This document shows, piece after piece, positions 2,881 to 62,560 of a stretch of 64,000 nucleotides of DNA. A program made the translations under genes and the position numbers. A model generated the notes under the pieces. It made no database searches, was not told the origin of the DNA, and saw only the letters and a program-made list of their open reading frames with translations. The DNA comes from Paramacrobiotus metropolitanus (taxonomy: Eukaryota > Tardigrada > Eutardigrada > Parachela > Macrobiotidae), in contig NW_026570258.1 of NCBI RefSeq assembly GCF_019649055.1, positions 558,001 through 622,000 on the forward strand, written 5' to 3'. The number at the start of each line of letters is the position of its first letter. Position 1 is the first letter of the stretch.

Positions 2881-2904
2881 GCGAAGTGTACCTACTGAAC
2901 CAAT

Positions 2905-4020: not shown

Positions 4021-4047
4021 AAGGCGGCGCCGCAACCTTCGGTGGAA

Positions 4048-16550: not shown

Positions 16551-18689
16551 TAATAAATAATTATTATTCTCTATATAAATTTTAATTTTATTGTGGTCAA
16601 AATATAATTTAACGTTAAGAAAAATGCGGGTGGTTGATACTCATGAAATTTTTTTTACAGTGTACCTACAGTGCCGGCTCGCAGTAACTGTCGTCTACAA
16701 TTCAGCACAAAATTCTATAGAAGTTATTGTACACCAAGCTACTCATCGACAATCGACACCTCAAAGAAAAATACATCGTCCAGAGATCTTGTTCTATTTT
16801 TAAAGGAGAAGAGGATTAACATTGTCAAAATCGGCTTTAGGCCACGGTGGTGAAATATGTAATATTAAACCGTTTGGGATTCTTTGCAGGATTTTGTACT
16901 GCTCTTAATTGCGTTTGTTTTGCGATGCGTGAGCAAAACATGAAAACGTAAACTTAAAGCGAGCAAAATACGAGAAAACACGAAGTATAATGTTAATCTG
17001 GTAAACTGTTGCGCTTATCCTTTTCCTGAGTTACAGGTCTGTTATGCTGTCTCTCGAGGTCTTTTTCTGGGATTCTCTAATATTCCGGAAATTCACCACA
17101 CACGAAATCAGTGGATGCATTTATAGTTTACACAACCAGACGGTCCAGACGGTTTTGAACCGTATCTCCGATACCTTCAGTAATCATAGTACAAGTGCTA
17201 TGTTTGTGCGGCTGCAGTCCTGCACCATCGAAATTCACTTAATAACAGTTTTCGTGGTGTCCTTAGAATTCCTGTTTGACGAGAACAGCGCTGGCATTGT
17301 TCCGCAAATACGCTTCCAATGTTACGTTATCAGGAAAACGCCAGAGATTCCAATATTTTTCAGAGTCCATTTCCGGATAAGTTAGGTTAAACTCAAACTT
17401 ATCCACCGTTTCCCTGTAGAAATACATATTGCCTTATATTATTTATGGGTCATTGGTACGCTGTAACCGCCAGCATGCCGAAATACAGTATAAGTTACTG
17501 TGCAAGTTGTATCTTGCAGAAAACTTGCCCTTTAGGCAGCACAAAATCAGCGGAATGTCCGGTTAGTGTGACGTTTAAATACAGATCATCCACGGTTATC
17601 GGATTGGAATCGGTAAACGCTTTATCAACCGCCGCAAGAACGGCTTCCGCATTCTGTAATAACGATTCTACGGTGACGTGCTTGGATCGATGGTGCTTGT
17701 ATAAGTCTATAAGATATTGATTTATATTACCAAATTCCATCCGCTCACATCCGTTGGTTTTTCGGTAGACTGAGTGAATTCCGGTTCAATTTTCATTAAA
17801 TACAGTGCAAACGTGCGGGGCAAGGGACAACCGGTTGACCCGGGGAGAGACTGGTTAAAGCAATTCGGTGCTGTTATGTTGGATATCTTTTTAGGGGTGA
17901 AGCGCACACCGGGTACCAGAGGATTGAGATTAGCGGCTAATGTATGTGGGGATAATCTCCGGCGCAGCAGGAAAACATAGGTATATTCTCCCAGCTCATC
18001 CGTGGGATCCACCGTGGCTCCATTGCGGATAAACAGGAAATTAATGGCGGTGCTATTGAGAGTAGGGTTCCAGATGTGGACTTCTAACAAGCAAAGCGTT
18101 TGATCACGCAATAATCAGAACATATTTGTGAAACTAATTTCACTTTGTAAGAAAGACTGTAAATTCTCCTTACCATCGACTGGAAAGGAGATTTTGAGGA
18201 AATTCTCGAAAGCCGGCAGGAGTTGATAATTGATTGGTGGATCTGGGTAGACGCGAAATACGTTTTTCAGCTCGACGGTGTACCTAACAATGCGAGATAC
18301 TGGCTGGGTGAAAGGCGTTCACGTTTGTCGAACATTCAGTGGCCTTACAAGAAATCTGCAAATCGCCAGACGTGCTCGATGCGGCCTTTCGTCAAGTCGG
18401 ACGCCGTGACGGCCATGTCGCAGCGGGTGATCGTGTACCTATTGGTTATTAAATTGAATTAATTTATCATAACCACGATGCACTTTATTCTAGGTGAGCA
18501 CCCTCGTGTTGTGCGAAGCGCAGACAGTTCCGTCAGATTTGTTATCCTAATGTTGTATTGAACGCCCTCAAGTGTCGCGGGATTGTTGGCGGACAGCGCT
18601 CTGGTAACATTATCCATTATGGCTTCACTTGACTACAAAAGAGCATTATTATTTTGACAATTTAGTAAAGTACTATGTAAATAACTATT

Positions 18690-21439
18690 CGAAGTGGCTA
18701 TTTTGCCGCAGTGTTTGTGGCTAAATAGCCATTTGGCTATTTTGCCGCACTAGGGTGGGCGAAACAGCTTGTTGGCTGTTTTACCGCACACTGCGTTAAA
18801 ATAGCTGCTCAGCTATTTTGTCGCACTATGGTAGGCAAAATAGTCAGTTGGCTATTTTGCCACACCATTATTGCAGCCTGTATCGCCAGTCGCCGCGTAT
18901 TTCAAGGCGCTCTGTGCGGTAAAGTGCTGGAAGTTCTTTAAAATAGCGTTACTTACTTAAAGCAGAATCTTACAGAGCGTTACAGAGCAACCAAACACTC
19001 CAGCTCAAAATGTGTCACTGTTAGTCGAATTAAAATTCATTTTCAAAAAAGCCATGCTTCGAAGGTTTTAGTCCAGCATTCAGTACTGTTATCAGCAGCA
19101 CAACATAGAGGCTAACAATTGTAAACAGCTTTACTGGGAAGTCACTAAACTGCAGCAAACAGGCAGCACGAAAATTCCTATCTGGAGCTATCTGCAGCGT
19201 GCCTGATGGTTGTAGCGCTGTGTTTTACGGTTTCATCCGAGCAAAGCCCGTAGGTTCACTTCAACCACCAGGTTACTCCGCGTGAGGGTCCCACTAACAG
19301 CCGGCATCTCGAACTACATATCCAGTCCGGTAAGAAATCGTGATTGTCTAGGATCACTGGCTTCCAGGACCTGTGTGGGGTATTCTCGGTTGATCCGAGT
19401 CTGGGTCCATACTTCCGGGGCTTTTTGGCTTTGGTCGGGTCCAAGCTCCACCGTTCGGAGTTCTTCGCTCGTACCGTACGAATACTGTTTCTATAACGGG
19501 TAGTGTGACATTAGCTCAAGGTCCCGTTAACAGCTGGTATGCTAGGTATGACTATTTCAATCCGATCGTTACGAGTCGATTATATAATTTCCCTGTTATG
19601 AACATCCTTCTGAGTGATGGAGGATAAAACCTGTCGTTCTGCCGGGACAAATAAGGAGGTATCTCTTCAGGAGTAATCCCGGTCCGGAAATATAGTTCTC
19701 GTTTGACCATCAGTCAACAAATGTCCAGGTTACATATCTACCTGCATACCCCTAAGCCGGACTTGTGATCACTGTGGAAACCAGGCATTTTTGTTCGATT
19801 ACCTCCGGCGGAAACTGCGGTCGATGATTCGTAGGGGGCCAGACTTGAAATTCGTATGTGCAGGGATCGTTTGGGTAGGTAGTAGGTTGTGGCTAGAGGC
19901 CGCAATCTGCGGCAAATTAAGTTCATCACATCCCCAATTTGGGATGTGTTAAATTAACATGATGATTCGGTGAGGTTCGTCGCAGTCCATAGTGGGCTGT
20001 CGGCATGTCTGTTTACCGGTTTACGGTGTGCTGTGTCTTCTAATGGCATCCGTCACATCACGGTTCGCCTGTGGTGCCCCATATGCCGGTAAGCTCGGAG
20101 TCCGTATGCTGCCTGGGTCTCCGAAGTCCGACGCAGCCCTCGAGGAACCGAGACACCGAGAGGACGCGTTATTATTTGACTGGGTGGCATAGTAGCGTCG
20201 AGCTAATCTACTGGCGACGGTGTCCTCCCGCTCCTGGGTCCCGACGGCTCGAACATCCGGAACGATGGCGATATTTTTGCCATCGGCGCCGTTGATTTCG
20301 GCCTCCGCGCCGACTGCGAGGTTCCAAACCGGGTTGTTGTGGTCGCTATTGGGTCACTTTTCACTGATAATCTAGTCATCGGGATGACCCTGTATTAACC
20401 GGTAATCTCCTGGTTCTTGTCGGTAAAATCGCGAATTTGAGGGGTGCGATTGGGGTTTTGGTGGTTTTTAGATTCACCAACCGGTGTATGGCATCACCTT
20501 GGCCAAGGCGCTGTGAGTTGGGCCCATGGTACTGGAACTTAGTAAAATCTTTGGTTTTAGTCTAGACCGGAACTTCTTTCGGTTATGAACCGGATCTGGA
20601 TCGCGGGTCGATGCTGGTCAGGTCTGCTAGAGCTCAGGTTTAGCAATAGCTCGCTATGGCCCTATGCTACGTTGCTGACCAGTGTGACGTCACGTACTTA
20701 GTGGTCTTGCGATTAGCTCTACGTCACGGGTGGCGTGGCCACCTGCGTGCAGGCGATAGAGCAAGCCACAAGAGGTGTCAACCGCCTCGAGTGTGCGGTC
20801 TCTGAAATTAGCAACACTTATAGTGGTCTTCTTCTGTCCCAGCGCTTTGGTCGGCTTAATGACGAACACGTCCGCCGAACGTGTTTGCTTGCCCAGACGT
20901 TTTAGCCGGGTGTACACGCAAGACGCCGTTCACACGGACTGCCGCTTTTATTGCTTGACCACATGCCGGTGACCATATGCACGTTTCATAGCAATACTCC
21001 CTGCATCCGTTTTTCGCGCTCTTTTGGTGTCGCTGTTTACTGTTTGTGTGAGTTTTTGGAAAAAGTCCGGCATAGCGTTCTTTGTCGTTGTTGTCGCGCT
21101 GGCTGGTAAATGCAAATTGTGGTATGAATGAATATAATTGTGATGTACAATTTTTGTTCCCCGGTTGCACCAGTGATGCGCTTAAAGGTGGTTTCTGGCA
21201 CTAGCATACACGCGGGAAGATGTTTCGGTCCCCCGACTTGCTTCATTGCAGTTGCAAGAGTGCGGCAAAATAGCTGGCTAGCTATTTTAACGCAGTGTGT
21301 GGTAAAATAGCCAACAAGCTATTTCGCAAACCATAGTGCGGCAAAATAGCCAACTGGCTATTCTGACGCAGTGTGCGGCAAAATAGCCTGAGGGCTATTT
21401 AGACCCTTATTGTCATACTGCGGCAAAATAGCCATAGCC
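18690..21439. mobile_element. Foldback element FB-a with 9-bp target duplication
   Basis: Flanked by ATAACTATT at 18681-18689 and 21440-21448. Both ends are arrays of palindromes built on GGCTATTTTGCCGCA and its complement (18694-18870 and 21250-21435). The 2.3-kb interior has only short frames and no transposase I can name. Repetitive inverted ends plus a 9-bp duplication are the known structure of Foldback and Mutator-like elements. It sits in intron 6 of A2. Confidence 0.7.
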
Positions 21440-21462
21440 ATAACTATTTCATGTAAGTGTTA

Positions 21463-21626
21463 CTGTAGCGGCTCGATCAAGTGGCACCACAGAGTCTGTG
21501 TACGGGAAATCAGCACTTGCAAAATGTACACAGCCCGTGCTTGCAAAGCGCATGAGCGTGCACACGCTGCTGTGTGCTGTTTTTCGCACACCAACCCTGT
21601 GGTGCCACTTGATCGAGCGGCTACAG
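21463..21626. mobile_element. 164-bp hairpin element flanked by TA
   Basis: The ends CTGTAGCGGCTCGATCAAGT and the complement of CTGTAGCCGCTCGATCAAGT differ at one base, and the inverted arms run on to about 30 bp. TA dinucleotides flank both sides (21461-21462, 21627-21628). This is the form of a Tc1/mariner-type MITE. It lies 14 bp beyond the right duplication of FB-a, in intron 6 of A2. Confidence 0.75.
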
Positions 21627-22318
21627 TATATGATGTTCAATAAAATGAACGGTCGCTATGCCCTACCAGTTTCTGATTGGGTGGTGTCAGATAATACAGC
21701 GTAAAAGTGTCGCGTAACGGACAGCCAGAGTGTTTAAAATCCCAGAATTTCCGTCCCTCTTTGCAGTCCGTTTGAAAGACCTCCCACTCGGTGTCGTTTT
21801 TGAGGGCGGGTGGTGTGCGGGATAGAATACCGTCAGGGGGCCCGAAAATCGTCTGCTCTTCTTTAAGGAAATACCGCCCGGCTTCCAGCCGCGCGTATAT
21901 TCCGTCCGCATACAGCATCCGGGAGTCCAGATCAATCGCCTGGTCATCTTGATCAACCACGCGGACAAAAAAATGGATGGCGGTACCGTTCTCCACGTCC
22001 GGATTCCACAGTATCACCGTCACCGCCTTCGGCTGTCGCTCTTTGTGTGAAATACAAAACAAACTTTTATGCAAATAAAAATGTTAAATAAACACAGGTT
22101 ACGGGAAATTTTGGAATTAGGCCAGATGGATCCCAGGGGACGGTCGTCACTTAATCCGCTTTCCAGTTGGCAACCTATTTGTTTCTGTATGTCAGGCAAA
22201 CGTTGCATGTTAACCGTCTCCGAAGCGAATAAACGGAATGAAAATTCTGGATCGCCGATAGAAGGGAGTCCTTGTATATGCTGTGATTGCGCATATATTG
22301 TTCCCTCTACGAAGACGG

Positions 22319-24151
22319 GGCAGGGGATAAAAGGTGGCAGTGGCACCTGCCACTGGCAACTGCCACCGGCAGTGGCAGTTGCCACAACGCGTTCTGGCAA
22401 GCGATAAAACGTGGCAACTGTTAAAAATTCAGAATCAGCTTGAGACAGTTTTGCCATCCAACGATAAGTTTTTGGGAGTATTAAATGAGTGCTGTTTTGG
22501 AGACGCAGCTGTCACAGAATTCACTCAGAATCAGTGTCGCTCACGATCGAAGCGCGGTAACGCTGCAACGCTGTTTTGGAGACGCAGCTGTCACAGAATT
22601 CACTCAGAATCAGTGTCGCTCACGATCGAAGCGCGGTAATGCAAGGTATCGTAATTATAATGCGACGGTAAAGCATTCAGCTAAGAGCAAGCTATCTCCA
22701 GAAATCGTTTGATTTTGGATACTACATTACACATAATGAAAAGCTAAGCTACAGGCGCGTGGCTGTAGGGCTGAGTCTGACGCTGACTACTAAACAGAGA
22801 CAGACTATTAAAATTGGTCTTGTTAATTTTTATCGTTATGTTAGGGTTTTCTTAATTTTAAATTTCTTTGTTTCTTGGATTTCTTAGGCTTTCTAAAAAC
22901 AAACAAACCAATAACTCTATGCAAACCTAAAAACCCTAAGAATTGTAAGGAACGCAAAAAGCGCAAGAAACCATAAAAAAAATTAAAAAGTCATAAAAGG
23001 CTTAAAAAATGTTTTGTCTATGCGAGTCAGACTCCAATGCCACGGCAGACACAATGCAAGCCGAATTGCAAGCGTTTCTGTCCATTGATGGATGTGGCAG
23101 ATGTGACGGTGGCCGCATTGAAGTGCCCAACACCGGCTTAAAGTCCTCAAAGTCTTCCATTACGCCTAACAAACTATTAGACAACGAAAAGGTAAAGGCC
23201 TGCTCGGTTGACTCTGCCAAACAAAGAGCGCGTCTGGATTTAATTCTTTATGAATCTACGCTGTAGGTAGTCACTAGGTACTACAGATTTACTCGGCTTC
23301 CTATTATTTCGTCCACCATTCACTTTGTCTACCATTCATTTCGTCCACCACTCACTTTGTCCACTAATTATTTACGCAATTAAACAGCAGAGAACCGTTT
23401 AAACCGAAAAAAAAACCATTAAAACCTAAGAAAACCAGCACATAAGAAATCTACAATTACATAAGAATTACCTAAGAAACCCAAGAAATCCTGAGAAAAC
23501 CTAGAGCATTGTAATTGTCTTCAGCATAATGTTTGGTGCTGTAATAATGTGTGTTGCATAATGTTGTAATCGTTTCCTAAAAAAACCAATGAATGAGTTG
23601 CGGAAACCTAAGAAAACCTAAAGCACTGTAGTCGTTTTCAGTAGTGTTGACGGTTGCGTCAGACCTACCGAAGTAGGTGCGGTAGTGTGAATCGAACCGT
23701 ATGGTGGACAAAATGTACGGTGGACAAAATGAATGGTGGACGAAATGAGTGGTAGACGAAATGAGTGGTGGATAAAATGAAGGGACACCCGGACACGGAT
23801 TTACTCGGTGTGCAATATTTTTAATTCCGTTTGTTTTCGTTTTTTATCTTTTGTGGACAAACCCTGAGCGAACACTAGGTTCGGTACCCCTCGTACTAAT
23901 TCGCACAAAGAATGTTTTTTATAATCAGGATTCACCATACTTGACGTGGACCATGCACGTGCCCGCTTTCAAGAGTTTAAGGATCTTTGAGCTGTTAATA
24001 AGGAGAAAAGTGGTGCCTTCCTTCGGTATCTTGATTTTCGAATTTTTAACTGTTGCCACGTTTTATCGCTTGCCAGTACGCGTAGTGGCAACTGCCACTG
24101 CCGGTGGCAGTTGCCAGTGGCAGGTGCCACTGCCACCTTTTATCCCCTGCC
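22319..24151. mobile_element. Long-TIR element FB-b inside exon 5 of A2
   Basis: Nearly perfect terminal inverted repeats of about 113 bp begin GGCAGGGGATAAAAGG and contain a (TGGCAACTGCCAC)-like palindrome run. The 9-bp CGAAGACGG occurs on both sides (22310-22318 and 24152-24160). Removing the element and one duplication restores an uninterrupted exon 5 reading NMTIVNCAVF then VEGTIYAQSQ. Inside are a 79-bp direct repeat (22491-22642) and an inverted pair around GTGGACAAAATGA (23300-23370, 23700-23785). An 85-codon frame at 23009-23266 has no recognisable homologue, so the element is probably non-autonomous. Confidence 0.85.
22491..22642. repeat. 79-bp direct repeat, two copies
   Basis: CTGTTTTGGAGACGCAGCTG and the following bases to GAAGCGCGGTAA are repeated in tandem almost without change inside FB-b, implying a recent duplication. 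Confidence 0.85.
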
Positions 24152-25769
24152 CGAAGACGGCGCAGTTCACGATTGTCATGTTCGACCTTTCAAAAAGAGA
24201 AAATTACAAATCATGGCCAGCTGTTGTGTACTTCCGTGCTTATAGAAAAAAGAACAAAATGTTAAACTACGTGGTATTAAGTGACGGCTTGTTGTTCGAA
24301 GCTACGTACGAATTCGGATACGGACCATAAGACTGGGTGCTGGGCAAGGCAACACGTGGGGTCGCGCCGGCAATGCGCACGGCAGCGTTGTGACTGCAGT
24401 CTGACTCTGAGCTCAGTGGGTCTCGGTTAAATAGAGCGTCTAGCTGAAGGAGATTCTGGACACTGCTTTCTATTCGTAGAATGTCCAAATTCAACTGATT
24501 TGGAGGAATTCGGAAAACAAACGGCACAGCCGGAACAACTGCCTGATCGTAGACACGCACACCCTTTTCCAACAGCTTCTGCATAAATGTCCCCTTATTT
24601 GGATGGGGAATGCGTAGTCTTGGCAGCGCGCTCCCAGATGACTCCGTTTTGATAGCGATCAGGTTTGAGATATTAGACATAAATGTCTCCTTAGTTGGAT
24701 GAGTAATTCGGCGTTTCGTCATCGCAGGCGTAGATGGCTTCGCTTTAGCACCGCCCAGGCTTGAGACATTAGACATGACGATAGTGTAAAGGTGTAAAGT
24801 AGGCGCGCAACCGGCAACCTGCAATAATTTGGAACCGCAATACTTTTAACTGACAGTTCGAACAAACAGCGCAAAATGCACGGCACTTCGTTACACAGTA
24901 AAAATACCCTGCGACGGTCAACGTATCCCCGGAATTCAGAAAGGTCACTAGACGGGCATGCGGCGCGTCGGTCGGCAATGCACTCGAACTATTGGCGTAC
25001 TCATCTGTAAGCATGATAAATTGTGTAAACGATTCTTGATGCTTGCACATGTAATCTAGGAGTTTATTTTCTTTCCGCCTGACTAACATTTCAAAGGCTA
25101 AGCGGATCTACACTTTGTTCGCACAAAAATTAAAACCGGTTTCTTTCTCTCCGCTCAGACAACTTACGTCGTACGCTTAATATGAACATAGAAGTTAGAA
25201 CCATTAGGTTGAGCTTCAAGAACTCATATGTGGTGAAAAGGGAATATTGTCATTAATTGCAGGTTTATAAGTGTCTTCTGCATTTTACCGAATTGTGCTT
25301 TCCATGCATGATTTAAAGCAGACTCCAATTCCGGCACCGAGAGATTGGCAGAGTGAATGGTCACCCGATGGTAGCCCATACGATCCGGGAGCGCGAAGAG
25401 CTGCTCAAACGGACTTAATTTCCAGATCAACCAGATCCAAAGGAGCATTCTTTCGCTGTACATAGAACATCACACCCTCGCCATCCAACTGTGGTAGTCG
25501 ATACATAGCCGATCGTTCGGTGCTGTTTTTATCGGAACACAAGCTGAACGTGACCAGCGTATCGTTGATTTCTGCAATCAACAGTTTCGCAGTTTAACAG
25601 CGCCAGCCAATAATCAAGCCACGGAGTAACGGCTGACTTACGTGAGACGGATTGCTGAAAAGCGGATGGAGTTTGTAGGCCATTGGCTATTCGTACATAG
25701 CACTGTACCGCTTCAGCAGAAAACCACATTAACAGTAGCCATAACTGCAGTTGTGATCTCAGCATGATG

Positions 25770-29364: not shown

Positions 29365-32300
29365 TTAAGCAGTAGCGTAAACAGCGGACGCCTGGTCCCG
29401 CAAAGAGATGTCCAACATTGCGCGATCTGGCAGGCGCCACACGTTCCAGTATTTGCCCGAGTCCGTCTCCGGATACGTCAGCGTAAAGGTGAAGTTTTCC
29501 ACCGTTTTCCTGTATGCGCATTAACAGACTCCGTTTACAGTGTTACCACTTTGCCTTTGTCCCAACAGCCGCACTCTTTCTACAAGCTCTACGTACCCGT
29601 CAGATGTCACATTACCTCTGGAATGCCCGGATAGCGTAACATTGAGGTAAAGATCATCGATGGTCAGTGGATTGGCTGCGGAGAAGGCGTTGCCCACGGC
29701 ATGCAAAATAGCGTCCATATCCTACCAATCCAGTTAATAACGAATTTATGCGCGTAGTACGAGTCGATACTTCAGGAAAATATCGATCACGGAAGCGTTC
29801 TTGTTTGCCCGGTTCCAACATACGGTTTTCCATTACACAGTTCAATCAGTGCAGCTAATGAGTTTCCTTACCAAATTCAATTCATTGTACAGTTCTTCGT
29901 CGCTGCTGCCCATCTTGGCCCAGAAAGAAAACGTTGCCGGCAGCGAAGATGTGCTGCGTGCGAGTGTCGACGGATTATCGCATAGTTTCCTTGATTGGTT
30001 TATGGTGCACGTTGTCTCTGGACACTTAAATTCCACCAACTGTGCCAGTGCATTAAAGAACGTCTCTGTCATATTTATACTACGGCACACATGGTCGTAG
30101 ATCCTTGTGCCAAAGTCTGAACCGGGATCGACGGCCAATTCTCGAGTATTACCATAGACATCGGCTCCAGCGAGCAACACGTGAAAATCAATCACGTTTC
30201 CCGTAAGGTCACGCTGCCATACATGCACGTCTAGAAAACCAGCGTCCTTGTTTTGATATTAATAATAATGTTCTACTTAATAAACAAACAATCAATCAAC
30301 CAATACAAGGAAGTATACATATATTATATACATATGCTGATATGCATAATACCAAATTAATATTATGCACTTAATTAATGTATTAATGCACATACGCGAA
30401 CGCGCTTCTAAACCTTGCATTGTTTTATGACATTCTCTAGATAAGTGAATTTTCTATACAGCAGTAGTGTTGTACGGTATACAGCGACGTATAGCATTAG
30501 CAGCGTAATGTGTATCATACTCCTTGGCGAGGCTCTCAAACATCGGCAATAGCTGATAATTGACTGGTGCGGTTGGATAAACGCGAAACGGTTGATAAGG
30601 CTGGAAAATGCCTCTGCAATATTAAATGGACACTCACTCGCAGGTTGCACCATTAATTGTAAGGGGAATATGCGGTACAGTATATGGCAGTATCAGCCAC
30701 TGAATAATAATATCCAGTTACGCAGATATACTGCTATACTCCTTAATATTTGCAAATATATGTACATCGATTTTTCTCATATTTTGCTCACTTGTTTGAT
30801 GACATTCTCTAGATAAGTGAATTTTCTATACGTACAGTACTCTCTATATAAGACCTTTCTATGTAAGTTGCACAAAGCAGATTCCTAAGCAGAGAACGGT
30901 ACTGACGCTAAAACCGTTTTGCTCACTTTAATTATATGGTGTCATATTTTGTTCACCAGCACAACCCCCATACGGCATGCTGTATCAATAACTGCAGATT
31001 TCTGATTGTACGACTAGCCTTTCCATTTGGTTTTTCGCTGCTATGTATTCTTATAACAAATCGAAATTGCTGAAAACTAAAACTACGGTAGAAAACTAAA
31101 ACTACTGTTGAACTACGGTAGAATGCGTGGAAGATCCTTCTCCATTGCTCCGGTCTACTTCACGTTGTTCCTTTTGTGTTTTCATGAAAATTTATTGATG
31201 TTTATGCTTCAAAAGTAACGGAAGAACGTTTTACTATGAAAATTAGTCTGTAAGTAAGTTTAGTTTCTGTAGTTTAGTTAGGGAATTGTAACAGCTGGTG
31301 AGAAAAATTTGAAAACGTAAACTTACTGTGAGCAAAATATGAGAAAAATCGAAGTATAATAAATACTCCATGTTTAAAATTTAGACAATAAAGAAGCATC
31401 TCTGTCTTCTCTCGGGTTATAAGGTAATGTACTCGAAGTTAAAGCAGCCGTAGCATTCCCGTTAACAACAGCTACTAGGAAAGAAACACAAACACAATAA
31501 TAATCAAAACACTAAAACATTCTTACGGTGAAGTGGGAAATCGCCATATATGTTCAATCCTTCCACTGGTCAAGTTGGACAGGGCGAAGGCCATGGTAAT
31601 GCAGAAGACTATATATCTATTAAAAGAGCGGATAATTTTATTCAGAGATTGGACACTTGACACCGAAGCCGGGTACCCTCGTATGGTCCGGAATTGAGCC
31701 AGTGGTGCGTGACTGACGAGACTGATCTTATACCCTGCACCCATGACTGTCAGAGGATTCGCGATGGCAAATTGCTTCGTCACATTGGCCAGCACCGTTT
31801 CCATGAACTGCTCTTGAAGAGTGTGAAGATGGTATGGATTGAAAGTACCTGACTGAGGTGCTAGTGCGCTATTCGGTGGCACGATATAATGCAGAGCAAA
31901 TGTTGGGCGTAACGGACATAACCAACCGTATGTGAGATCCTGTAGTTTCTTCCCTTCATCGCAGTCCGCGAGAAATCGTTCCCAATGTGGGTCGGATGGC
32001 TGGACGACCGGTGCGCGCGACAGGGCAAACGATCCGCGGAGCCAATCAGGTCGAAAGCGAGCCTCTTCCAACCGCTTATATATACCGTCAGCATACAGCA
32101 TGCGAGAATCCAGATAGATGGAGTGTCTGTAGCTTTTTACCAACCGAATAAAGAAATTAATAGCAGTGCCGTTGTCGACGTCAGGATTCCACATAAACAC
32201 CATCAGCGACTGCTTCTGAGTGTCTAAAAATTGTGATATTGTTATTGGTGTGATGCTTGTTATTGTGTGATTCATGAATTCTATCAGTGATTGTTGTGCC

Positions 32301-35112
32301 ATAGTATGGCGTCATTCGACCGTTTTGCCGCACAATACGTCAAAACAGCCTTATTTGATTTTTACACACCTGTATCTGTAGCTGACAAAACCCAGGAGAA
32401 AATTGAACAAATTAAAAGTCTTAGAACGCTAAAAAACAGAGGAAATCCAGGAAATAGAGGAAATCCTTAGCTATTAATATTAAGAAACCAAAGTATCTAA
32501 AAAAGAGCCAATTGTCTATTACACCGGCAATGTTGCTGCAGAATTGTTAAACATAATTTTGGCGCAGTGTTCGGCAAAAATCGCCACTTCAAGCAGTTTT
32601 GCTTAGCTTTCGGCTAGATTAGTTTGTTTGTTTGTTAACTGTTGTGCTTTGTACCATACTACTAAATGATCTTCTTGTCACGCCAAGGCACGCCGTATAG
32701 ACCTTGCCATTGGGCACTGCAGATTTACTGGAAGCTGGCCAAGCTGCTGCCAAACCTGACTTTCGTTTGGGGTCTTCGTTTATTAAGTTTTCCTTTCTTG
32801 ATTTGGCCAAGTGGCATTTTATGCGGACGTCGCACCGCTTACAACACACTCGATAACCCACCATACCCTCGAAAACCCTCGATAACCCGATAACCCTCGA
32901 TAACCCACCACCTTCCGACTGCGGTAGTCGGAAGAGTGGAGTAAGCTCTGGACTTCGTGAGTGGCCGCACACAATGCTCCCACTTCCGCTAGGCACAATC
33001 GGATGTCGTGCCTGGCGGATGCTTGTTTTTTATGGTTTTTAAAACAAACTGAGCTAAACCCAGGTAAACAGCTTGGCCAGTTTACAGTTATGATGGTAAG
33101 CTGGCCAGAACAGGAAGCCACAACATGGCGAACCACTTAAACAGTGCTTTAGTATCAAGGCCGTGTTTATGGCTTACCTATAAAGGATAACAGGATCTTC
33201 ATGATCTGCTTCTGGAAATATGGTAGATCTTGCACAGTAATGGGTTTGGGGGAAAATAAACGGAAGGACCATTCTGGACTGGGCTTTGCATCCTGTGAAT
33301 CGTCAGCGGTATCTGACAGGTTTTCCGTCGCGTTCATAAGAAATTTCTCGCAGTTAAATCAAAAAATCTTTGTAGATGAACAATTAATATAAGAATGCAA
33401 GAAACGTAGGATACGAGTACGACTGCCATGAATTAACGATAAATACTACTGTTCAGGTGCGCGTACTGTGTACTTGGTCTTCTTTCAGATCTAGATTGCC
33501 GGCGTAATTCATCGGTTTGCACGCCGGGTGCGTCGACTATGAACGGGATGTCGCTTATTATTTCACCCATGATCAAACAAGGATAATCATCTGGCGGCAT
33601 CGGGAAAACCGGAGGCGTCGTTTCATTGTACACTTGTACGCCATGTTCACGCAGTTTCAGTATGAATTCGTATTTTGGTGTAGGGGCTATTTTGCGAGGG
33701 CGAATCGTTGTAGCATGCACTGCAGTCGCCTCAGCAGAATGCGAAGCGTTCGACATGACGATGACATAGAGTATTCGTGTTGCCGATGAACTACAACAAT
33801 TCGTACCATACATCGTTTTATCTGTTCAATATTATGCCACTGCCGGCGGCAAACTATTGGTAAATCGCTGCACATCGCAAAATTCTTGTTAGGACATTCT
33901 ACTTCAACGTATGGGTTAGCCACTCGATAAAATAAATTTTATTTTGGAAAACAGTGTACGTAATCTTGGTCCTAATATATACACACGTGTATCGAAAAAG
34001 TGACAACAACTTACCCGGATTCAGATATCCCGTCCTGGGAATTCAGCATAGATAACATTCGCACACGTGGCGCGTCCGTTGGCGCAGCGTTTGGACTGCC
34101 GGTAAATTGCTCTGCAACTGCAAGCGTTAGTTTGGTTAGTTTTCCCTCCCGTATGCCTTTTGTTTTATTACGGGAAATAACAACGGGATTTTTTAGCGTA
34201 CAGTAAACTCTGTGAGATTGAACAACTGCGAATAATGGACGAAAGCAACTGCGAATATTGAACAGTTGCTTACATTGAACACTTTGAAGGAACCGTAGGT
34301 GTTCAAATTACACAGATTTTACTGTACTGGTAATTTTTCACCTATGATCAGGCCGTTACTTTCAAGGCGGTTTTGTCGACTAACAGCTCCAGGAAAATCT
34401 ACCGGTTCATAAAACCAGTCTTCTTCAGATTGAACACCCAGATAAGTAATAACGAGCGTTTTTGCACCTAACCGGTGTGCCACGGTCTTTTTCGAATTTT
34501 GCAGGGCTTTATAAAAGTTTTGAATGTCATTGTGCAACCGGAAGAAATATCAGAAATTTTGGTTCACCCATGTACAAAGTGCCCGCCCACTTTCCTTAAA
34601 CTGAATAAATTTTATGCTCCATTTCAGTGTGAAATATCGAACCCCATTAAAGGTGGCACTATCACCGGGCCGAAAAAATCAATTCAAAATTTTCGATCAC
34701 AGAGTACATGAGTATATTGTTCGGTTAATGCATAAGCCTTTACCGAAGGCTGCCTTCCATGCATGATTGAGCGCGTCCTCCAGTTGAGAAACCGATAGAT
34801 TTGTTGATTAAATGACAACCCCATGGAGTCCCATCCGGCGTGTCGGTGACAGTAATGTTTTAAGCTCATCCAAAATATGGAGAAGCTGCTGATCCAACGG
34901 TATATTCTTCTGCTTCATATAACACGTTATACTGCTCAATGCCGGCAGTTCAGCTGCAAAGAAGCCTGTTTTGTCGAGCCACCATTCAGCAACTAATCGA
35001 AATAGCTAAGCTTGCCTGTCTTCAGACCGTTGGCTACGCGTACATGACTCTGCGCTTCAACTGCCAGTATCCACATAGATATCGGCCAAAACTGCACTGG
35101 TGCTCCCCTCAT
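29365..35112 (-). pseudogene. Family A copy 3, one nonsense codon
   Basis: Exons 35112-35016, 34953-34744, 34111-34015, 33790-33450, 33312-33178, 32223-31677 (exons 6 and 7 fused), 31616-31527, 30613-30483, 30230-29872, 29721-29597 and 29509-29365 join in a consistent phase, about 758 codons. The only break is TAA at 34808-34810 in exon 2, where A4 has a Tyr codon (ATCTACTCCACGAATC against ATTTAATCAACAAATC). Signal peptide: MRGAPVQFWPISMWILAVEA. Intron 6 is gone and an extra segment (QSGTFNPYHLHTLQEQF) joins the two exons; intron 7 is 60 bp. The intron-1 donor appears to be GCAAGC. Closest to A4 (both have NAFSAANPLTIDDL). Either a very young pseudogene or a gene needing an alternative exon 2; I favour the former. 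Confidence 0.7.
32820..33010 (+). mobile_element. SINE-like fragment, second copy
   Basis: The stretch with GAAGAGTGGAGTAAGCTCTG, GACTTCGTGAGTGG and CACTTCCGCTAGGCAC is about 75-80% similar over some 110 bp to the element that splits B3 (there on the minus strand). Left of it are short repeats of CCCTCGATAACCC. It lies in intron 5 of A3. Limits are approximate. Confidence 0.6.
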
Positions 35113-36338: not shown

Positions 36339-36554
36339 TTAAAGCAGCTGAGCCACATTCCTCGGAACCGCTGTTGAAATTCACAAGTATACGAAGTTAC
36401 AGTTTAGCAGTGACAGCCATATATATTTCGTTGAACGGTTGAAGAGAGCTGACGCTTAACCGAATACAGCACATTGAAAGGCGATTTGTATTTGTATTAT
36501 GTCCATCTTTTAGATTTCGTGCTCGTGGATTCGGTAATCCAGCGTCCGACGAAA

Positions 36555-39500
36555 TTAAGCACCAACAACAACGGCGGATGCATTGTTTCGCAAAAAACTA
36601 CCCATCACTGAACGATCGGGGAAACGCCACAAATTCCAATATTTTCTGGAGCTCGTCTCTCGATGCGTCAGTGTAAAGTTAAACTCTTCCACCGTTTTCC
36701 TGTACATATTTATTCAATACAGTTACTTTTTCGTTTTCATGATAACGGGTTTCTTTTCTGCAAGGAAAGGCTATACATACCCCTCAGGTGTCATATAGTC
36801 ATCGGAATGTCCGGTTAGCGTGATATTGAGAGAAAGGTCGTCGATGGTTAGCGGATTGGCTGCGGAGAAGGCGTTGCCAACGGCATGCAGGACAGCGTCG
36901 ATATTCTAATGGTAAGTGAAACAAAACCAGTCAATAATTATTATGATGCCGGTCACGAAAGCCGGCATTTTGAGGAAGTACATAACAGGAATTTTGATTT
37001 CTGGACTCGATTCATCTAATAAATTTGATTACCAAATCTGGTCCATCGTGGGGTTGGCCGTTCTTGATGTTTTCTATCTTCATTAGGTGAAGAGAAAACG
37101 TCGAAGGCAACGGGCTGCGTTTGGGCGTCGATTGAGTAATGCACTGCTCAGGCGATTGGTTGTTCGCGCACGATGTGTTCTGGCAGCTAAATTTCATCAT
37201 CACCACCGGCACATCGGAGAAACGTGAGGTCAACTTCATACTGCGGCAGATTTGGCTGTACATCAGTTTGCCAAAATGAGAACTGGGATCAACGAAACCT
37301 GGACCGTTATTAAAGATGGCAGATTCAGTCAGCTCAATGAAGAAATCGACGACGTTGCCCGTAAGATCTGGATTCCATATATGCACATCTTGATCTGGAA
37401 AACAGCCAGCATCTTTGCAGTATCACTTTAACACAGACCGGGTTATTTTTTACAACGCGCTGCTACAGTTTGCGTTCTAACCCATTTTCGTCATAAGTTG
37501 TAATTGAAAGATTAGCCAAGTAATTTTATGTTCAAAAAAGGCGCTTTCGTACGGTGTGAGAGTCAATATGACACACGTAGCGCGAAAACATAAACAAATG
37601 ATTTAAAATTATTAACACCTGCACGATATGCATAGGTACAAACCCACTATGTTGCCCTCAAATTCTCAATACTGCACTAAGTTTTGCATCTTACCGGCCG
37701 ATCGAAAACTGTTCACGTATTCCTTGATGGTATCCTCAAAAACCGGCAACAGTTGATAGTTCATCGGGGTAGTTGGGAACACGCGGAACGAATTGTTGGG
37801 CTCGTAAGCAGGTCTGCAATTTCGACACTCACTGGATAAAACCGCAGCTTTGGGTCCAGCCAATAGTCTTCTTACAGGGTACGAGGAAATCGCCATATAT
37901 GTTCTATCCGTCCTCGGCGCAAGTTGGACACGGTGAAGGTCATGTCACAGCGGGTAAGTGTGTACCTGTTGTTAAATGAACACAAGGCCATTCAGACACA
38001 GACTAGAAAATCGAAACCGAAGTACCACAACATACCCTCGTAAGGTCTGGAAGTGAGCCAGTTGTGTGCGGTTAACGAGGCTGATGTGGTATTCTACACC
38101 GCTGAGGCTTAACGGATTGGCGTCGGCAAAATCCCTGGTCACATTGTATAGCACCGTTTCGTTGGACTGTAAACACAATAGCGATATCGGTTCACGGGAA
38201 TGCGACTGATACAATGAACGCCATAAATGCCATAAATGTGGTTACACCGATAGCCGATAGCATATCATAGCGCTATCGGCTGCCTGTGTAACCACATTTG
38301 CGGCGTTATTGTACACCGTAATAGTAATGTACAGTTCCCGAGATCACATTCTTTTTCGCCGCGGATTATCGCTGTAAGCGCAACCGCATGATCTTCTTCG
38401 TACACACGGTATAATGTAGGGCAAAAAATGTTCTTCTCTGCTTTAACAAGTAGTGCTCAAATGACTGCTTCTCTGTTCGAACCCAATATCAGCGACTAAT
38501 ACTATAGAACAGCTTCTGTTACAGGCTGCTGATGCCTTCAATTACTTCCTACAAATTCTCTGAATCGTGGACCGATTGGCAAGTTCCTATTCTTCCAGCC
38601 CCCTTTTACGTACTAACATATTCGTACGCAGGTAAGACTTTACGAAGAGTACGGAGCATCGAAATACTTGTGGCGTAAAAACCGGTTGTCTGAGTGAAGA
38701 CTGAAAACAGCGATTTCCTTGTGTTACTAAAGTACTCTGTAGATCTGGCAGGGCGTTTCATCGGAAAGGGAACACTGTGGTTAATTGTACGCTCGGCACT
38801 GCAAAATGCAAATCAATACCAGTGTCTCATTCGGCCGCAGAAGATAATGTAGAGCAAACGTAGGGCGTAGTGGACATGGCATGTCGTTGCGATCCCGTAA
38901 TTTTCTCCCTTCTTTACAGTCCATGAGAAACTTCTCCGAGATGAGGTCAGGTTCTCCGGCGAGCCGTACGCGCGACAGCTTAGACAGCACACGATGTGCG
39001 ATATATTTTGCGCCCTCCAGTCGTTTATAGATAGCGTCCGCGTACAGCATGCGCGAATCCAGATCGATATACTGCTGGTAACGATTAATCAGCCGAATAA
39101 AAAAATTGATAGCCGTCCCGTTGTCCACGTCGGGATTCCATAATGCCACCACAATGGACTGCGTCTGCTTATCTGTGAATTATAATATAATTTAATTTAA
39201 CTTTGACTGTCGACTGTGGAGTATTGCGAATCGCTCAGCGTGAGCTAGATTGACCTTTACGTTTAGTATAAAACAGATGTTCTGAGTCTGAGAGTACCAG
39301 GGCTCAATTTGTGACTGACCTAATGCGGTTTCCAGTGTTTGAACTATCTGTCTCTGCAAATTTGGTAAATTTTGCAGGTTTACGGGTTCGGAATAGAATA
39401 AACGAAAGGACCAGTCAGGATCGGTTGTACGCAAGGGGGCATCCTTCTGATCGTTATTAGTTGACGACAGGCTGTCGGCTTTGGGTTTGATAAACACCTC

Positions 39501-40789
39501 CTCGCAATTCAACCTACGACTAGATTAGAATGTCCCCGTAATAAATATAAATTTGTAATACTAAACTCAAACGGCGCGCGAAAGCTTGTTACTAATTATG
39601 GAAATAAATGCTGCTGCTACTGCGAAAATGCGTACGTCGGCGAAAATCCTCCATCAAAGCGCGGTGCAGTAGGTTCAGCCCCAGTGGCTTCCGTTACGAT
39701 CGGGATGTTGGTTCCGGCTTCTCCCAGATGTATATGACAGGCAGGAGGACTACTCCCAATCGCCGGTAATATGGGCAGTACCGTCTCATTGTACACGTTG
39801 ACACCTTTTTCCTGCAGTTTCTGTTTGAGTTCATCCTTTGTCGGAGGAATCATTTTGCGGATCCGAATATTCGTTGTAGCCGGTCCCGCATTGGCTTTAG
39901 CTTGATGTGAATCGTTAGACATGACGACTGTATAAATTATCCGCGCTACCGATGACCTGCAACAATGCTAGCCATACATACGTGAGGTTATTTTTACCAC
40001 CTAGGTACACCATGAAATCGTCTGCATTTTCATGGCCGTATAAATTTAAAAATCTTAATCGTACTATAATAACATCCGTTAGCAAATTGGTCTGCGGTGA
40101 AGAACGCGTTAATTTATTAACATGCTGCTTTAAGAATTCAGACGTTTGGAGGTTTGGTCAGAGGGGAAGACGTACCTTGATTTGGATGGTACAGCAGAAT
40201 TCACAATCGACATTAATCGCACATGCGGCGCATCCGTAAGCACGCTGCTGGGACTACTGGTATACTGCTCTACAAGCACAAGAGCCATTTTCTAAAAGCT
40301 TTTCTGTTTATAAGTTCATGTCTTATTTCTGTTACATAACTAAGCAAGGTTCACTTACTGAACGCTTCCGCCCATGCATAATTGAGCGCGTCTTCTATCT
40401 GGGGAACCGAAAGATTCGTGGAGTAGATGGCCACTCCATGGAGGCCCATGTGGCGTGGTAATGGCAGCAGCCATTTAAACTCCTCCAGCCAGTAGATGTA
40501 CTGCTGGTCCGATGGTGTGTCTTTCTGTTTCAGGTAAAACATGATGCTTAGCGACTGTTCATGCCCGTTTTCGAAATGCCGGTTAGGAAGAGAAAGAGCA
40601 TCGCTGTTGGCTGCAACCAGCATATTTGGCAAATGCACCATCCAGCAACCAAACAAAACATAAGTTTAACTCACATAAGACAGGACGCGAAGAATTCTGT
40701 ATGCCATTGGTTATGTGGACATGGCCCTGCACCTGTACTGCTAAGAACCACATACACACCGGCCATAATTGCAATAATGTTCCCGGCAT
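36555..40789 (-). CDS. Secreted modular protein, family A copy 4 (intact)
   Basis: Exons 40789-40675, 40610-40359, 40269-40176, 39956-39621, 39513-39320, 39172-38820, 38166-38036, 37965-37876, 37813-37695, 37394-37033, 36905-36781 and 36699-36555 join without a stop: 771 aa. All donors are GT. Residues 1-22 are a signal peptide (MPGTLLQLWPVCMWFLAVQV); there is no TM segment later. Exons 2-4 form an N-terminal region; exons 5-8 (residues about 266-521) and 9-12 (about 522-771) are homologous repeats. Matching motifs: FSFRLF/NSFRVF, NLPNLQRQI/QLLPVFEDT, WNPDVDNGTAINFF/WNPDLTGNVVDFF, CPLRPTFALHY/PLPSTFSLHL, NPLSLSGVEYHIS/NPLTIDDLSLNIT and GRIEHIWRFP/RKYWNLWRFPD. The sequence is rich in N-glycosylation sites. 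This is the reference copy of the array; function unknown, extracellular role inferred. It might be a distant SEA-like ectodomain protein, but I could not show this. Confidence 0.85.
38212..38311. mobile_element. 100-bp hairpin element flanked by TA
   Basis: Outer arms CAATGAACGCC / GGCGTTATTG and inner arms AATGTGGTTACAC / GTGTAACCACATT, with a CGATAGCCGATAG / CTATCGGCT core, give a long stem. TA dinucleotides flank both sides. It sits in intron 6 of A4, just before exon 7, without touching the splice site. MITE-like. Confidence 0.65.
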
Positions 40790-54712: not shown

Positions 54713-55227
54713 ATGGAAAAAACAGCAACATCAACCATGATATTAGTGGTTTTCAGCAGCGTTACTGCACCTGTACATTGTTATGTGCACACTCTTGATC
54801 TAATGATAACTCCTCCCGAAAATCTTTCCCGTTACAGAATCAGCGGTAAAATGAACTGCAGCTTAATAAGAATTGGTATGTATTGCAAGTGCTTTTATTT
54901 TGTAGAATTTAACGAAAGCCTAATAACTACCAGCCTATGTGTGGAAGGAAATTTAACCCGTGACCAGCAGGAGCGCCTCCAGCGCTTTTCAGACTATGAG
55001 AAAACAATGGGCTACGTCGGGTTTGACCTGATGGCACACATTACTGGTCCGTCTTCAGAAGCGCAAACGGAGCACCTCATGGAATTCGAGGTCCTTCAAA
55101 AGCTGCCAGCCAGCATAGGCTGGCATGATGTCACGGTGCTGTCCAGTAATCATTCGATCAGCGAATTAGAATCCGCACTCGAGTATGCCTGGGAAATTCA
55201 ATTGGGTGAGGAAATACAGTTTGGTTA

Positions 55228-58200
55228 GGCCAGGGTCAAAAAGAGGGAGGGAAAACTAAAGGAAGGGATTTTGAGTGGTCAAAAAGAGGGAGGGAAAACT
55301 AAAAGGAAGGGATTTTGAGTGGTCAAAAAGAGGGAGGGAAAACTAAAGGAACTGGATTTTGAGTGGTCAAAAAGAGGGAGGGAAAACTAAAGGAAGGGAT
55401 TTTGAGTGGTCAAAAAGAGTAAGGGAATTTCTATGGTAAGAAAAGGAAGGGAATTTGGGCGATACTAAAATTTGAAAAAGTACAAAGCAAGCAAAATTTG
55501 AGCAAAACAAACTTTTCAAGTACTACCTCCGGAAGCTGTTACTGCGTAATAGCTTCAAATATAGTGGTAGTCTTCCACTTTACAAAAAAAGTTATGTCAG
55601 ATTTTCTCCGCAGGTTTGGTTTTGGATGCTATAATTATGGAACGTTTTTATGTTCAAAAGTAAGTACTTACTTACAAAATAGACACATTTAGCTCGTTTT
55701 GTAACTACGCACCCGAGCGAAGCGAGCTTTTTTCTTAAACAAGCTGACGAGCAAAACGAGCCCGCGCGTCTAATTGATGACATTTGAGTACCTTGTTCTC
55801 TCAATCGGAAAATACCCCAGAACTTTGGGTCACTGCGTGACCTTTGGGTCGCCAACGATTTTTTTAGCTGATACGCAACTGCAGCGTGCCGTTTCACTCA
55901 CGTTTTGATCAACACGGAATTCACAAGTTCTAAAGCAGCCATTTTTTCTCCAGTATTCATCCGCATTAATTTTGTGGTTTTGTTGGGCTTTTGGCTTTAT
56001 TGCTTTCACAATAAAGTGTGCGTTTGGGTGCCCTCTGCGTCATGTTCTGACAAAACGAAATATCTAAATGTATAATATACTCTGTACCTATTCATCTCAT
56101 CATTCTCATTACTTATATAAATAGGTAATCTGATTTCCTCACTAACAAAATACTTCCCACTTTCATATCTAAACAAGCAAAAATGTTCACTAATAAGAAG
56201 CTCTACAGATCTAAGTACAAAGCTACATCTTTGAGCATATGAGCTGTAAGGTACGTAAAATTTACGTTCTGTACTGCTCAAATGCGCTGATTCAATATAG
56301 AAAAAATAAAAAAAAGGGTTACTAGATACCCAGTTGTTAAATATTGAAGTATAAGACAATTAGACAATCCTAGATATGTAGATTTAATCATTCAAAAAGC
56401 TTAATTTGAAAAAGCTGATAAGCTTGATTTCTAATTACCAGTACAGGCTAATTTGAAGTTGTTTTTAAATTCACAAATCGACCAGCATTTTTAATACTTA
56501 GATCAGAACATTATAAGTTTGAAAACTGATTGCGAAACTAAAACAATAAATATATCTAGAATTATGGTGCAAATTCCGAAATTAATTTGGCGTGTTAAAC
56601 GTGAAAAACATACAGGGGTGCTACGCGAAGTTCGGGCAGTTGGATAAAATAAATCCTACAGTATTCCAGTTGGTCTTTTAGTTTTCTGTTTTGCACTTTT
56701 CTAGTGGAACTTTTCATGGCAGATTTAATGATACCAAAATTGGATCCGTTGAGTCTGTCAGTAACGAGTTGGGCGCTTAATAACGGGGAGGAGCAGTGGG
56801 CGTTTTAGGGATGGTTATTACAGCCTTTATAAAAAATTCCCCAAACGATATTTTTGCACGCCATTTTCTGGAAACGTTTGAGTGGTCCAACGGTGTCTTT
56901 TTTGGGTTAGGAAAAGAATCTCGCGTCATCGGTGATCGAGATTACCTCGACACAACTTGTATCTCCCATAGACTTATATGTTGTAACGTACCTAACGAAG
57001 GATGGGGTTGCCTAGCACAGAGACTTAAGTAACTTCGAGCTGACATATTTCGTGGGTGGAACGTGGTCCACATTAAACGATTTTAACGTTTTAATGCATA
57101 TCTACTGCTGAGGTGGGGAGAGGAAAGCGCCAGATAATTGGAGGCAAAAGCTAACAAAGCGACTGGGAAAAAAAGTTATGGTTGCCGTTTGAGTTTGCTA
57201 GACCAGCTTGTCTCTGGCAAAGTGGGTGGATTGAAGCATTTAAACTATCTCTCAGTATCCTAGAGATGAGATTTTGCAAAAAACAGTCGTCGAAAACTTC
57301 ACTGGGTTGCAGGGCAAGCGTGCACAAAGGGTCACTCTCCACTTTTACTATGCCCACAGTTACATCGCAAAGGTCACGTAAATTAGGTTGTAATCGAACG
57401 ATCTGAGATACATTTCGCAAGAGCCTTAAATGGCGAACACGTCAGACGTATGTATTTTGGATAAAAATGTCAACGGAATTTTTAAACAAATTATAATTCG
57501 GAGGAAGACTCTCACGGTACATGGGTCCAACAGAATTCTAAAACTGGTCTGCTCTAGTTTCGGACGCACTGCAATTCGAAACACGCTCTTAGCGTAAGGA
57601 ACGATAATCCAAAAGATGGTAGACACATACGGCAATACTATAAAATTGTAATGATTCAGTCAATTGTGATGGGTGACCTGTGGTAGATTTCGGAAAAAAG
57701 TGCCCGAACTTGGCGTAGCACATATGTATATAACGTAGATACAGAATGTATTGAAAAAATAATATAAATACCAGATTTTGGTTCGAAAATTACCTGAATG
57801 CTTAAAAGTTGATTTAAAATAAGTTGATTTAAAATCAATTGCCAATAATTTTTAGAAAGTAAAACCTTCAAATTAAAAATTTGAAGCCTAGCCTTCAATT
57901 TTACCTAGCCTTCAATTTCACTTTGATTTCTACATTTTATACCGGCAGACAAAATTTGATGGACATCATTTTTTCTGAATTACGAAATATTTTAAAAAAT
58001 CAAAGTCACATAAAAAAATCATGTTCAAGTGGTTTTTTGAAAACTAATTCAATGACCGAAAAATATCGGCTACGATTCTTGACTCGTGTGCGACGATCTC
58101 CTATGCAGCCCTAACCCAATACTGCGGTTTTAACCTTGAGTAGACTGTTTAAAAATTTAGGGATGTCAGGAGTACTTCAGTTCAACTTAGCAGATCAAAC

Positions 58201-58911
58201 TGCGTATATACAGTGGAAACATTGGTGCCGACCTCGGGTACCCAGGTTTGAGGTCACCTGGTGCACCAATTTGTAACGGCGCTCACGTTTATGCATACAG
58301 AACTCTTTGACTCTTACAGAATTTAAACTCTTACAGAGTCTGACTCACCATGTTTATTTACGTAGGAATAAAAAATCGTTGGCGACCAAAAGGTCACGCA
58401 GTGACCCAAAGTTCTGGGGTACTCTCCGATTGAGAGACCATTCAAATGTCATCAATTAGACGCGCGGGCTCGTTTTGCTCGTCAGCTTGTTAAAGAAAAG
58501 CTCGCTTCGATCGGGTGCGTAGTTACAAAACGAGCTAAATGTGTCTAATTTGTAAGTAAGTACTTACTTTTGAACATAAAAACGTTCCATAATTATAGCA
58601 TCCAAAACCAAACCTGCGGAGAAAATCTGACATAACTTTTTTTGTAAAGTGGAAGACTACCACTATATTTGAAGCTATTACGCAGTAACAGCTTCCGGAG
58701 GTAGTACTTGAAAAGTTTGTTTTGCTCAAATTTTGCTCGCTCTGTAGTTTTTCAAATTTTAGTATCGCCCAAATTCCCTTTCTTTTCTTACCATAGAAAT
58801 TCCCTTCCTCTTTTTGACCACTCAAAATCCCTTCCTTTAGTTTTCCCTCCGTCTTTTTGACCAAAGAAAATCCCTCCCTTTAATTTTCCCTCCCTCTTTT
58901 TGACCCTGGCC
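55228..58911. mobile_element. 3.7-kb foldback element FB-c with 9-bp target duplication
   Basis: GTTTGGTTA flanks both ends (55219-55227, 58912-58920). Termini are GGCCAGGGTCAAAAAGAGGG and its complement. The arms, 55228-55865 and 58370-58911, are inverted copies of each other; each starts with tandem 43-bp units around GGTCAAAAAGAGGGAGGGAA (five on the left, three on the right), which explains the unequal length. The interior (55.9-58.3 kb) is AT-rich with no transposase that I can name. Arms made of tandem repeats plus a 9-bp duplication match the Foldback/Mutator-like structure. It lies in intron 2 of A5, 22 bp after the donor. Confidence 0.88.
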
Positions 58912-61900: not shown

Positions 61901-61996
61901 TTTCTACACTTAAAAATATTTTTATTTTTATTTGTTTAATTTTTTAAATCCTGATATCTATATTACTGTAATTATGTGTTCTACAGTAGACGTGTG

Positions 61997-62560
61997 TTAT
62001 TTATTAGTAACAGTAAACCTAAGGGAAATGTCCATAGAAGCAAATTGGTGTATACATAGCAGATTTCGCTTTTTCCGCTCACTCCTAAAAACGTTTGGTA
62101 GCCAAATGATAAGTAATGACATTCCGCAGTTAGGTGATAGATATACATTACCGAGTCTACCGTGAAAAGCGCTTGTCTGCACAACATCTAGTTGAAAATT
62201 TAAGTGTGAAGAAAAATTCAAAAAGATTTGAACGGAAAAAGGTTTATTAAACTCTTCGTTTTCGACTAGCCTTTTCGAATCGGCCCGTAAAGACACAGGA
62301 ACAAAAAAGTGAGTCTGAGCCAAAAAAGAGCCATTATTTTTTAATTTAAAGTGAAGTTCGAAATACAGGGAAAACCGTTGCGGACAAAACTGCGCGTAAG
62401 GTGCAGGTCCGTAAATGACCCTGTAGCGAAGTTCCGCAACACTAGGTTGTGTAACTTGTGTTACTTGTAGACAAAAACTTTGAATACGGAATGGCAGAGG
62501 TACGGCCCATATGACCAATTGTAAAAGCAAAAGCGCGCAAAAAGCGAATGTTGGATGCAA
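61997..62560 (-). CDS. Hypothetical secreted protein nested in A5 intron 8
   Basis: A single open frame of 187 codons on the strand opposite to A5. It begins with an excellent signal peptide (MHPTFAFCALLLLQLVIWAV) followed by about 165 residues with three cysteines in the first two thirds, alternating hydrophobic/polar patterns suggesting beta strands (RFSLYFELHFKLKNNGSF, FSVQIFLNFSSHLNFQLDVV) and two Asn-linked glycosylation sites. The family is not recognised. Support is the length, the signal peptide at the very first Met and the lack of repeats; no paralogue is seen in the window. It could still be a chance frame or one exon of a longer gene. Confidence 0.45.
   Translation of the reverse strand: MHPTFAFCALLLLQLVIWAVPLPFRIQSFCLQVTQVTQPSVAELRYRVIYGPAPYAQFCPQRFSLYFELHFKLKNNGSFLAQTHFFVPVSLRADSKRLVENEEFNKPFSVQIFLNFSSHLNFQLDVVQTSAFHGRLGNVYLSPNCGMSLLIIWLPNVFRSERKKRNLLCIHQFASMDISLRFTVTNK

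Follow-up and report, generated by a model that had tools for sequence, protein, structure and literature searches.

The window, a stretch of 64,000 nt from the genome of the tardigrade Paramacrobiotus metropolitanus, has four two-unit genes on its minus strand; a fifth, on the plus strand, lies mostly within it (A1 to A5, Table 1). A4 runs on the minus strand from 40789 to 36555 and was predicted from the sequence to have 12 exons with 772 codons and a stop. Its 11 introns are all of the GT-AG type, with lengths of 44 to 653 nt. The phases entering E1 to E12 are 0,1,1,2 / 2,1,0,2 / 2,1,0,2. A purpose-written spliced aligner returned the same model in a self-match. The weakest splice sites are the E4 donor (CCGAC/GTACGC) and the E12 acceptor, which has a poor pyrimidine tract; the junction of lowest certainty is the entry into E5. 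A preliminary description of this DNA had proposed the 12 exons with the phase series 2,1,0,2 occurring twice, and the GT-AG reading bore this out. The motifs that it listed (WNPD..NG..(N/D)FF; CPLR/PLPS; NPL; HIWRFP/NLWRFPD) are also present in A4.

Table 1. Predicted exons of A4 and two-unit paralogues in the window (positions are those of the window).
Feature	Position	Strand	Description	Basis or remark
A4 E1	40675..40789	-	start codon and hydrophobic, signal-peptide-like N-terminus	hydropathy
A4 E2	40359..40610	-	entering phase 1, N-terminal region	matched in A1-A3 and A5
A4 E3	40176..40269	-	entering phase 1, N-terminal region	
A4 E4	39636..39956	-	entering phase 2; start may be part of a third, older module	
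A4 E5	39320..39513	-	unit 1, entering phase 2	
A4 E6	38820..39172	-	unit 1, entering phase 1; WNPD...NFF, C...CPL	
A4 E7	38036..38166	-	unit 1, entering phase 0; ADANPL	
A4 E8	37876..37965	-	unit 1, entering phase 2; HIWRFP	
A4 E9	37695..37831	-	unit 2, entering phase 2	
A4 E10	37033..37394	-	unit 2, entering phase 1; WNPD...DFF	
A4 E11	36781..36905	-	unit 2, entering phase 0; SAANPL	
A4 E12	36555..36699	-	unit 2, entering phase 2; NLWRFPD, C-terminal tail, stop	
A1	7332..12116	-	two-unit paralogue	homology model, ends approximate
A2	17278..25750	-	two-unit paralogue	homology model, ends approximate
A3	29368..35112	-	two-unit paralogue	in-frame stop in E2; no clear E6/E7 intron
A5	55049..64000	+	two-unit paralogue	last two exons beyond window end

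The stop in A3 lies at 34808-34810 (minus strand). With this stop and no clear E6/E7 intron, A3 is perhaps a pseudogene or the product of mis-assembly. A stray E11-like match at 6168-6254 (minus strand), with 57% identity to A4 over 30 residues, is perhaps the remnant of another copy.

When the genome was searched with the A4-type E6, at least 34 places were found at E up to 10. A search with a single-unit E6 gave at least 35 places at E up to 1. Counted by hand over both lists with a cut-off of E 0.001, E6-type exons occupy at least 39 distinct places, spread over 13 contigs, and two of the 39 have an in-frame stop. These places are often clustered (contigs C38, C6, C36 and C19). Relatives were sampled in 13 further genomic stretches, L001 to L013. 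Two-unit genes were read in L001-L004 and L006, with L003 only partial. The single-unit loci are L005 and L007-L013, and each of these eight has one run of unit exons (tblastn with 27 units, E 1e-4). The single-unit genes reach a stop at most 13 codons beyond the modelled end, and no second unit was found downstream of any of them within the 2.8-3.8 kb examined. In L003 (C6:2510501-2519000), E9 is present and E10-E12 were not found in the following 3.3 kb, so that the gene is either truncated or carries a long intron. We calculated dN/dS on shared exons for four pairs, all of which are given here: 0.27 for A1-A2 (279 codons), 0.29 for A3-A4 (205), 0.21 for L001-L002 (322) and 0.34 for L005-L007 (209).

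E5-E8 and E9-E12 had been described as encoding homologous halves of about 250 residues, and a profile-profile alignment of the halves had been suggested. In A4 the halves are residues 261-516 (unit 1, U1) and 517-772 (unit 2, U2), with 22.9% identity across 245 columns. They match each other in blastp with E 1.7e-14, a value from one pair and without composition correction. Profiles of U1 and U2 from A1, A2 and A4 matched in hhalign with E 1.2e-17. With the family profiles (10 U1 rows against 9 U2 rows), the E value was 4e-40 over 215 columns and the score was 263.6. The reversed control gave E 0.32, and the top score in 30 column shuffles was 18.4. The homology of the halves thus stands. The profile of the single units (S) matches both halves, with 7.5e-46 for U1-S and 9.9e-48 for U2-S. 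At the exon level, the cross-matches in the window are weak but collinear, pairing E5 with E9, E6 with E10, E7 with E11 and E8 with E12 types; the best E values in this order are 0.002, 0.031, 7.9e-4 and 0.23. No likeness was found between a unit's two parts. By eye, the tail of E8 resembles the C-terminal tail in six genes, as a relic of a lost stop would. This likeness is not above chance, as 198 of 2000 shuffles score equally well.

Intron positions were compared on an alignment of 27 units (10 U1, 9 U2 and 8 single) that was built from the proteins alone. A phase-1 intron at the E5/E6-type border is present in 10 of 10 U1, 8 of 8 S and 7 of 9 U2. It falls on columns 51-54 in U1, 54-65 in S and 53-72 in U2, where the alignment has a gap. 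A phase-0 intron lies on column 311 in 8 of 10 U1, 8 of 9 U2 (A5 is off by one column) and 6 of 8 S. A phase-2 intron lies on column 361 in 7 of 10 U1, 5 of 9 U2 and all 8 S. The misses at these common columns belong to A3, A5, L001 and L004 in U1, to A1, A2, A5 and L006 in U2, and to L005 and L010 among the single units. Some of them are evident errors of the models, the read-through intron in A1 being one, and others could be genuine. Models of the relatives were built by homology to A4 and its paralogues and are thus not fully independent. In most members, the two halves agree in the columns and phases of their inner introns.

The unit of A4 is bounded by one phase, with phase 2 before E5 and again before E9. 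At the entry of unit 2, a phase-2 acceptor lies 19-37 nt upstream of the core in all 10 two-unit genes, and it is the top-scoring site in 9 of them. The aligner's own entry phases to unit 2 differ in A1 (phase 0) and A3 (phase 1). The entry to unit 1 is harder to place because the linker varies. Here the aligner gave phase 0 or 1 in A2, A3, A5, L001-L004 and several single-unit genes. We read the deviating phases at unit entries as errors, only part of which are settled. By hand, phase-2 acceptors of unit 1 were placed in A4 (-100), A1 (-118) and A5, L001 and L002 (-169), and those of single units in L005, L007 and L008 (-187) and L010 (-190). A conserved upstream peptide begins at the hand-placed acceptor in seven genes, four with a single unit and three with two. 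A phase-2 entry to unit 1 or to the single unit is settled only for the nine genes in which it was placed by hand.

A maximum likelihood tree of the 27 units was built on 221 of 442 columns. The tree is unrooted, and supports were taken from the Newick string. It has three clades: U1 (92.9/94), U2 (98.5/99) and single units (96.2/98). Four groups are found in U1 and again in U2: (A1,A2), (A3,A4), (A5,(L001,L002)) and L004 with L006. The pair (L001,L002) is weakly supported in U1 (52.6/70), and the branching order among the recurring groups is unsettled. A tree of the C half agrees with the full tree (U1 94.3/90, U2 84.1/75). In a tree of the N half, the U1 clade is weak (51.4/29). Given the matching subclades in U1 and U2, the simplest history is a single duplication that preceded the split of the two-unit genes. 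Without a root, the tree by itself is silent on whether the single-unit genes are older.

We conclude, with a probability of about 0.86, that A4 belongs, as a two-unit member, to a large and probably secreted family in which the unit was duplicated once within the gene and one-unit relatives persist. That a unit of four exons was duplicated inside the gene is in itself very probable. The comparisons show a four-exon unit with phases 2,1,0,2 that was copied once inside the gene, and one-unit relatives that are still present in the genome. Both borders of the unit are at phase 2, so a second copy stays in frame and the old last exon turns internal. The outcome is a predicted protein of 772 residues carrying two homologous units. 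The preliminary description had derived the gene as a whole from duplication of a four-exon unit. For the two-unit form this agrees with the sequences, the intron positions and phases and the single-unit relatives. It does not extend to the whole gene, because the N-terminal part and one unit are already together in the single-unit genes.

The single-unit genes could instead be secondary. A deletion in a two-unit ancestor, with one end within unit 1 and the other within unit 2, would have fused the first part of unit 1 with the last part of unit 2, and the duplication would be older than all the members that were read. The identities have the pattern expected of such a deletion product: in the N half, single units are nearer to U1 (mean identity 0.310) than to U2 (0.243), and in the C half nearer to U2 (0.384) than to U1 (0.288). 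The pattern reflects either a deletion across two units or faster change beside the new junction, and the latter accounts for it equally. In the trees of both halves, the single units form a clade of their own and are not nested in U1 or U2. This favours the faster-change reading, without proving it, and a loss would have to have taken place before the two-unit genes spread. In addition, E5 of the single units is equally near U1 (0.327) and U2 (0.330), whereas an origin from U1 predicts that it be nearer U1. We consider secondary loss unlikely.

Less likely still is a fusion of adjacent single-unit genes via read-through, with the N-terminal exons of the second gene skipped or lost. Partners for read-through are at hand, as the members are clustered and often same-strand neighbours. 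However, the E8-E9 intron, in which such exons would have lain, is 44 nt long in A4 and shorter than 150 nt in A1, A2, L001, L002, L003, L004 and L006. In A3 and A5 it is about 0.8-0.9 kb long, and E1-E4 of A4 have no match there at E below 0.5. Later deletion of the N-terminal exons would explain their absence under this reading. Convergence or low complexity as the source of the likeness between the halves, with a chance agreement of the phases, has a negligible probability: three matching internal phases alone would occur by chance 1 time in 27, but the score of 263.6 compares with at most 18.4 in the shuffles, the reversed control has no comparable match, and most members have their introns on shared columns of the alignment.

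Duplication of the unit within the gene may have a longer history. E1-E4 could represent an earlier and by now eroded copy of the four-exon unit, so that the gene has three units and not two; we hold this reading tentatively, at somewhat less than even odds. The family would then have grown by four exons at a time, from 8 in the single-unit genes to 12 in A4. The count of 8 is predicted, as the first exon of the single-unit genes was not found. The phase-2 intron between E3 and E4 lies in a motif T..G.PV.RI.Y, and those of E7/E8 and E11/E12 lie in T..G..V.RF.F. By hand count, the codon interrupted by the E3/E4 intron is one for Gly in 11 of 18 genes (Arg in A4), and the phase-2 intron of the unit likewise interrupts a Gly codon in 18 of 27 units. 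In hhalign, the N-terminal part of 15 genes matched the E6b-E8 region of all units with a score of 23.95 over 77 columns. This score is above 40 of 40 and 200 of 200 shuffles (maximum 18.2 in the 200), and the reversed control scored 12.07. The combined profile followed weak first tests, so repeated trials have to be allowed for. In the hhalign alignment, the split Gly codons and the phase-2 introns of E3/E4 and E7/E8 fall on the same column.

Other comparisons speak against a third unit. The phases are 1,1,2 in the N-terminal part and 1,0,2 in the unit, so that one of three differs. No likeness was found between the front of E2 and E5-E6, where 49 of 100 shuffles were equally good. A shorter N-terminal stretch alone gave a weaker match, with 5 of 300 shuffles equally good. 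Against whole-unit profiles, the N-terminal part scored inside the shuffled range for U1 and S and just above it for U2 (22.8 vs 22.4, 20 shuffles).

A4 has a hydrophobic N-terminus, no clearly membrane-like stretch elsewhere by hydropathy, and 14 sequons. It is likely a secreted glycoprotein; the reading of secretion rests on the N-terminus and on the absence of a clearly membrane-like stretch elsewhere. Each unit has two conserved Cys columns (26 and 24 of 27 units) and two conserved Trp columns (25 and 27 of 27). The second Cys column is Ser in unit 2 of A4 and of A3, so that any disulphide at this place would be absent from some units. As a working idea, the unit may be a small extracellular domain whose doubling made a two-headed binder with higher avidity. 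We regard this as improbable; one of the two Cys that are conserved elsewhere is missing from unit 2 of A4, which lowered our estimate. The size and clustering of the family would fit a role at the animal surface or in a body fluid, which is a guess.

The family had been called unrecognised, and the searches agree with this. A4 had no Pfam match at E up to 10. Ten of the 27 units were scanned as well and gave three sub-threshold matches, in one member each, with a best E of 0.064. A PDB profile search gave two matches, the best with E 0.084, and neither was significant. A search of bacterial and archaeal genomes with one peptide pattern, which has limited sensitivity, found no relative. No paper on the A4 family was found, going by titles or abstract openings. 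AlphaFold gave a mean pLDDT of 52.4 for E6-E8 of A3, where a 60-nt in-frame intron was read through, and 40.6 for E10 of A4. The order of strands and helices is similar in the E6 and E10 models, which says little at these pLDDT values. Foldseek with the low-confidence A3 model returned nothing at E 0.001 or better.

Two known protein families were compared with the unit. By eye and in poor models, parts of the units seem to have a strand-helix-strand-strand order like that of the SEA domain (PF01390). Neither A4 nor the 10 units searched matched it in Pfam at E up to 10. The best PDB profile match was tapirin (PDB 6n2b), over residues 5-66 of the unit. Its E values, 0.084 with the whole sequence and 1.6 for the stretch, are not significant.

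Internal tandem duplication of exon sets with symmetric phases is a known general process. A4 resembles it in that the run of exons is bounded by phases 2 and 2 and is repeated in frame. It differs in that the repeat includes the old last exon, and in that one-unit and two-unit forms both survive, clustered, in one genome. As the process is well known, the interest lies in a clear case and an orphan family and not in a new principle. What is new here is the single-unit relatives (8 of 8 distant members) and the three-clade unit tree with matching subclades. The A4 family would thus record the step from one unit to two in a probably secreted protein, with both forms in one genome. As both forms are alive, the fate of the old last exon and the later change of the two copies are open to study. 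It is also a large protein family without a match in the Pfam copy used.

Bivalent spider toxins are reported to have arisen from a secreted single-domain ancestor by one old duplication, which gave a two-domain form within an expanded gene family (PMC13172734). The A4 family is like these toxins in its change from one unit to two by one duplication and in its expansion. In the toxins, the duplication is reported to lie inside one exon, without introns (PMC13172734), whereas in A4 four exons were repeated together with their introns. We found no link between the A4 family and spider toxins, and nothing points to A4 as a toxin.

Several other features were noted in the window. Between A3 and A4, at 35654-36342, lies an inverted repeat of 271 nt with 93% complementarity and an inner palindrome, like a fold-back element. 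At 55228-58911, within the long intron that follows A5's first modelled exon, there are inverted repeats with arms of up to 406 nt, 94% complementary and about 2.8 kb apart. Long arrays of tandem repeats, with unit lengths of 43, 30 and 28 nt, lie at 965-4033. Four long frames share a GVCPL/GICPL motif (44171-45256 on the plus strand; 46847-47959, 50346-51281 and 52060-53550 on the minus strand), and by eye they look like a membrane receptor family. Also by eye, 42081-43521 (plus strand) looks like a rhodopsin-type receptor. Elsewhere in the genome, PF00775 intradiol dioxygenase, which is unusual in animals, has eight exon-sized matches on contigs C54, C71, C96, C102 and C224, and seven of the eight are above the curated cut-off.
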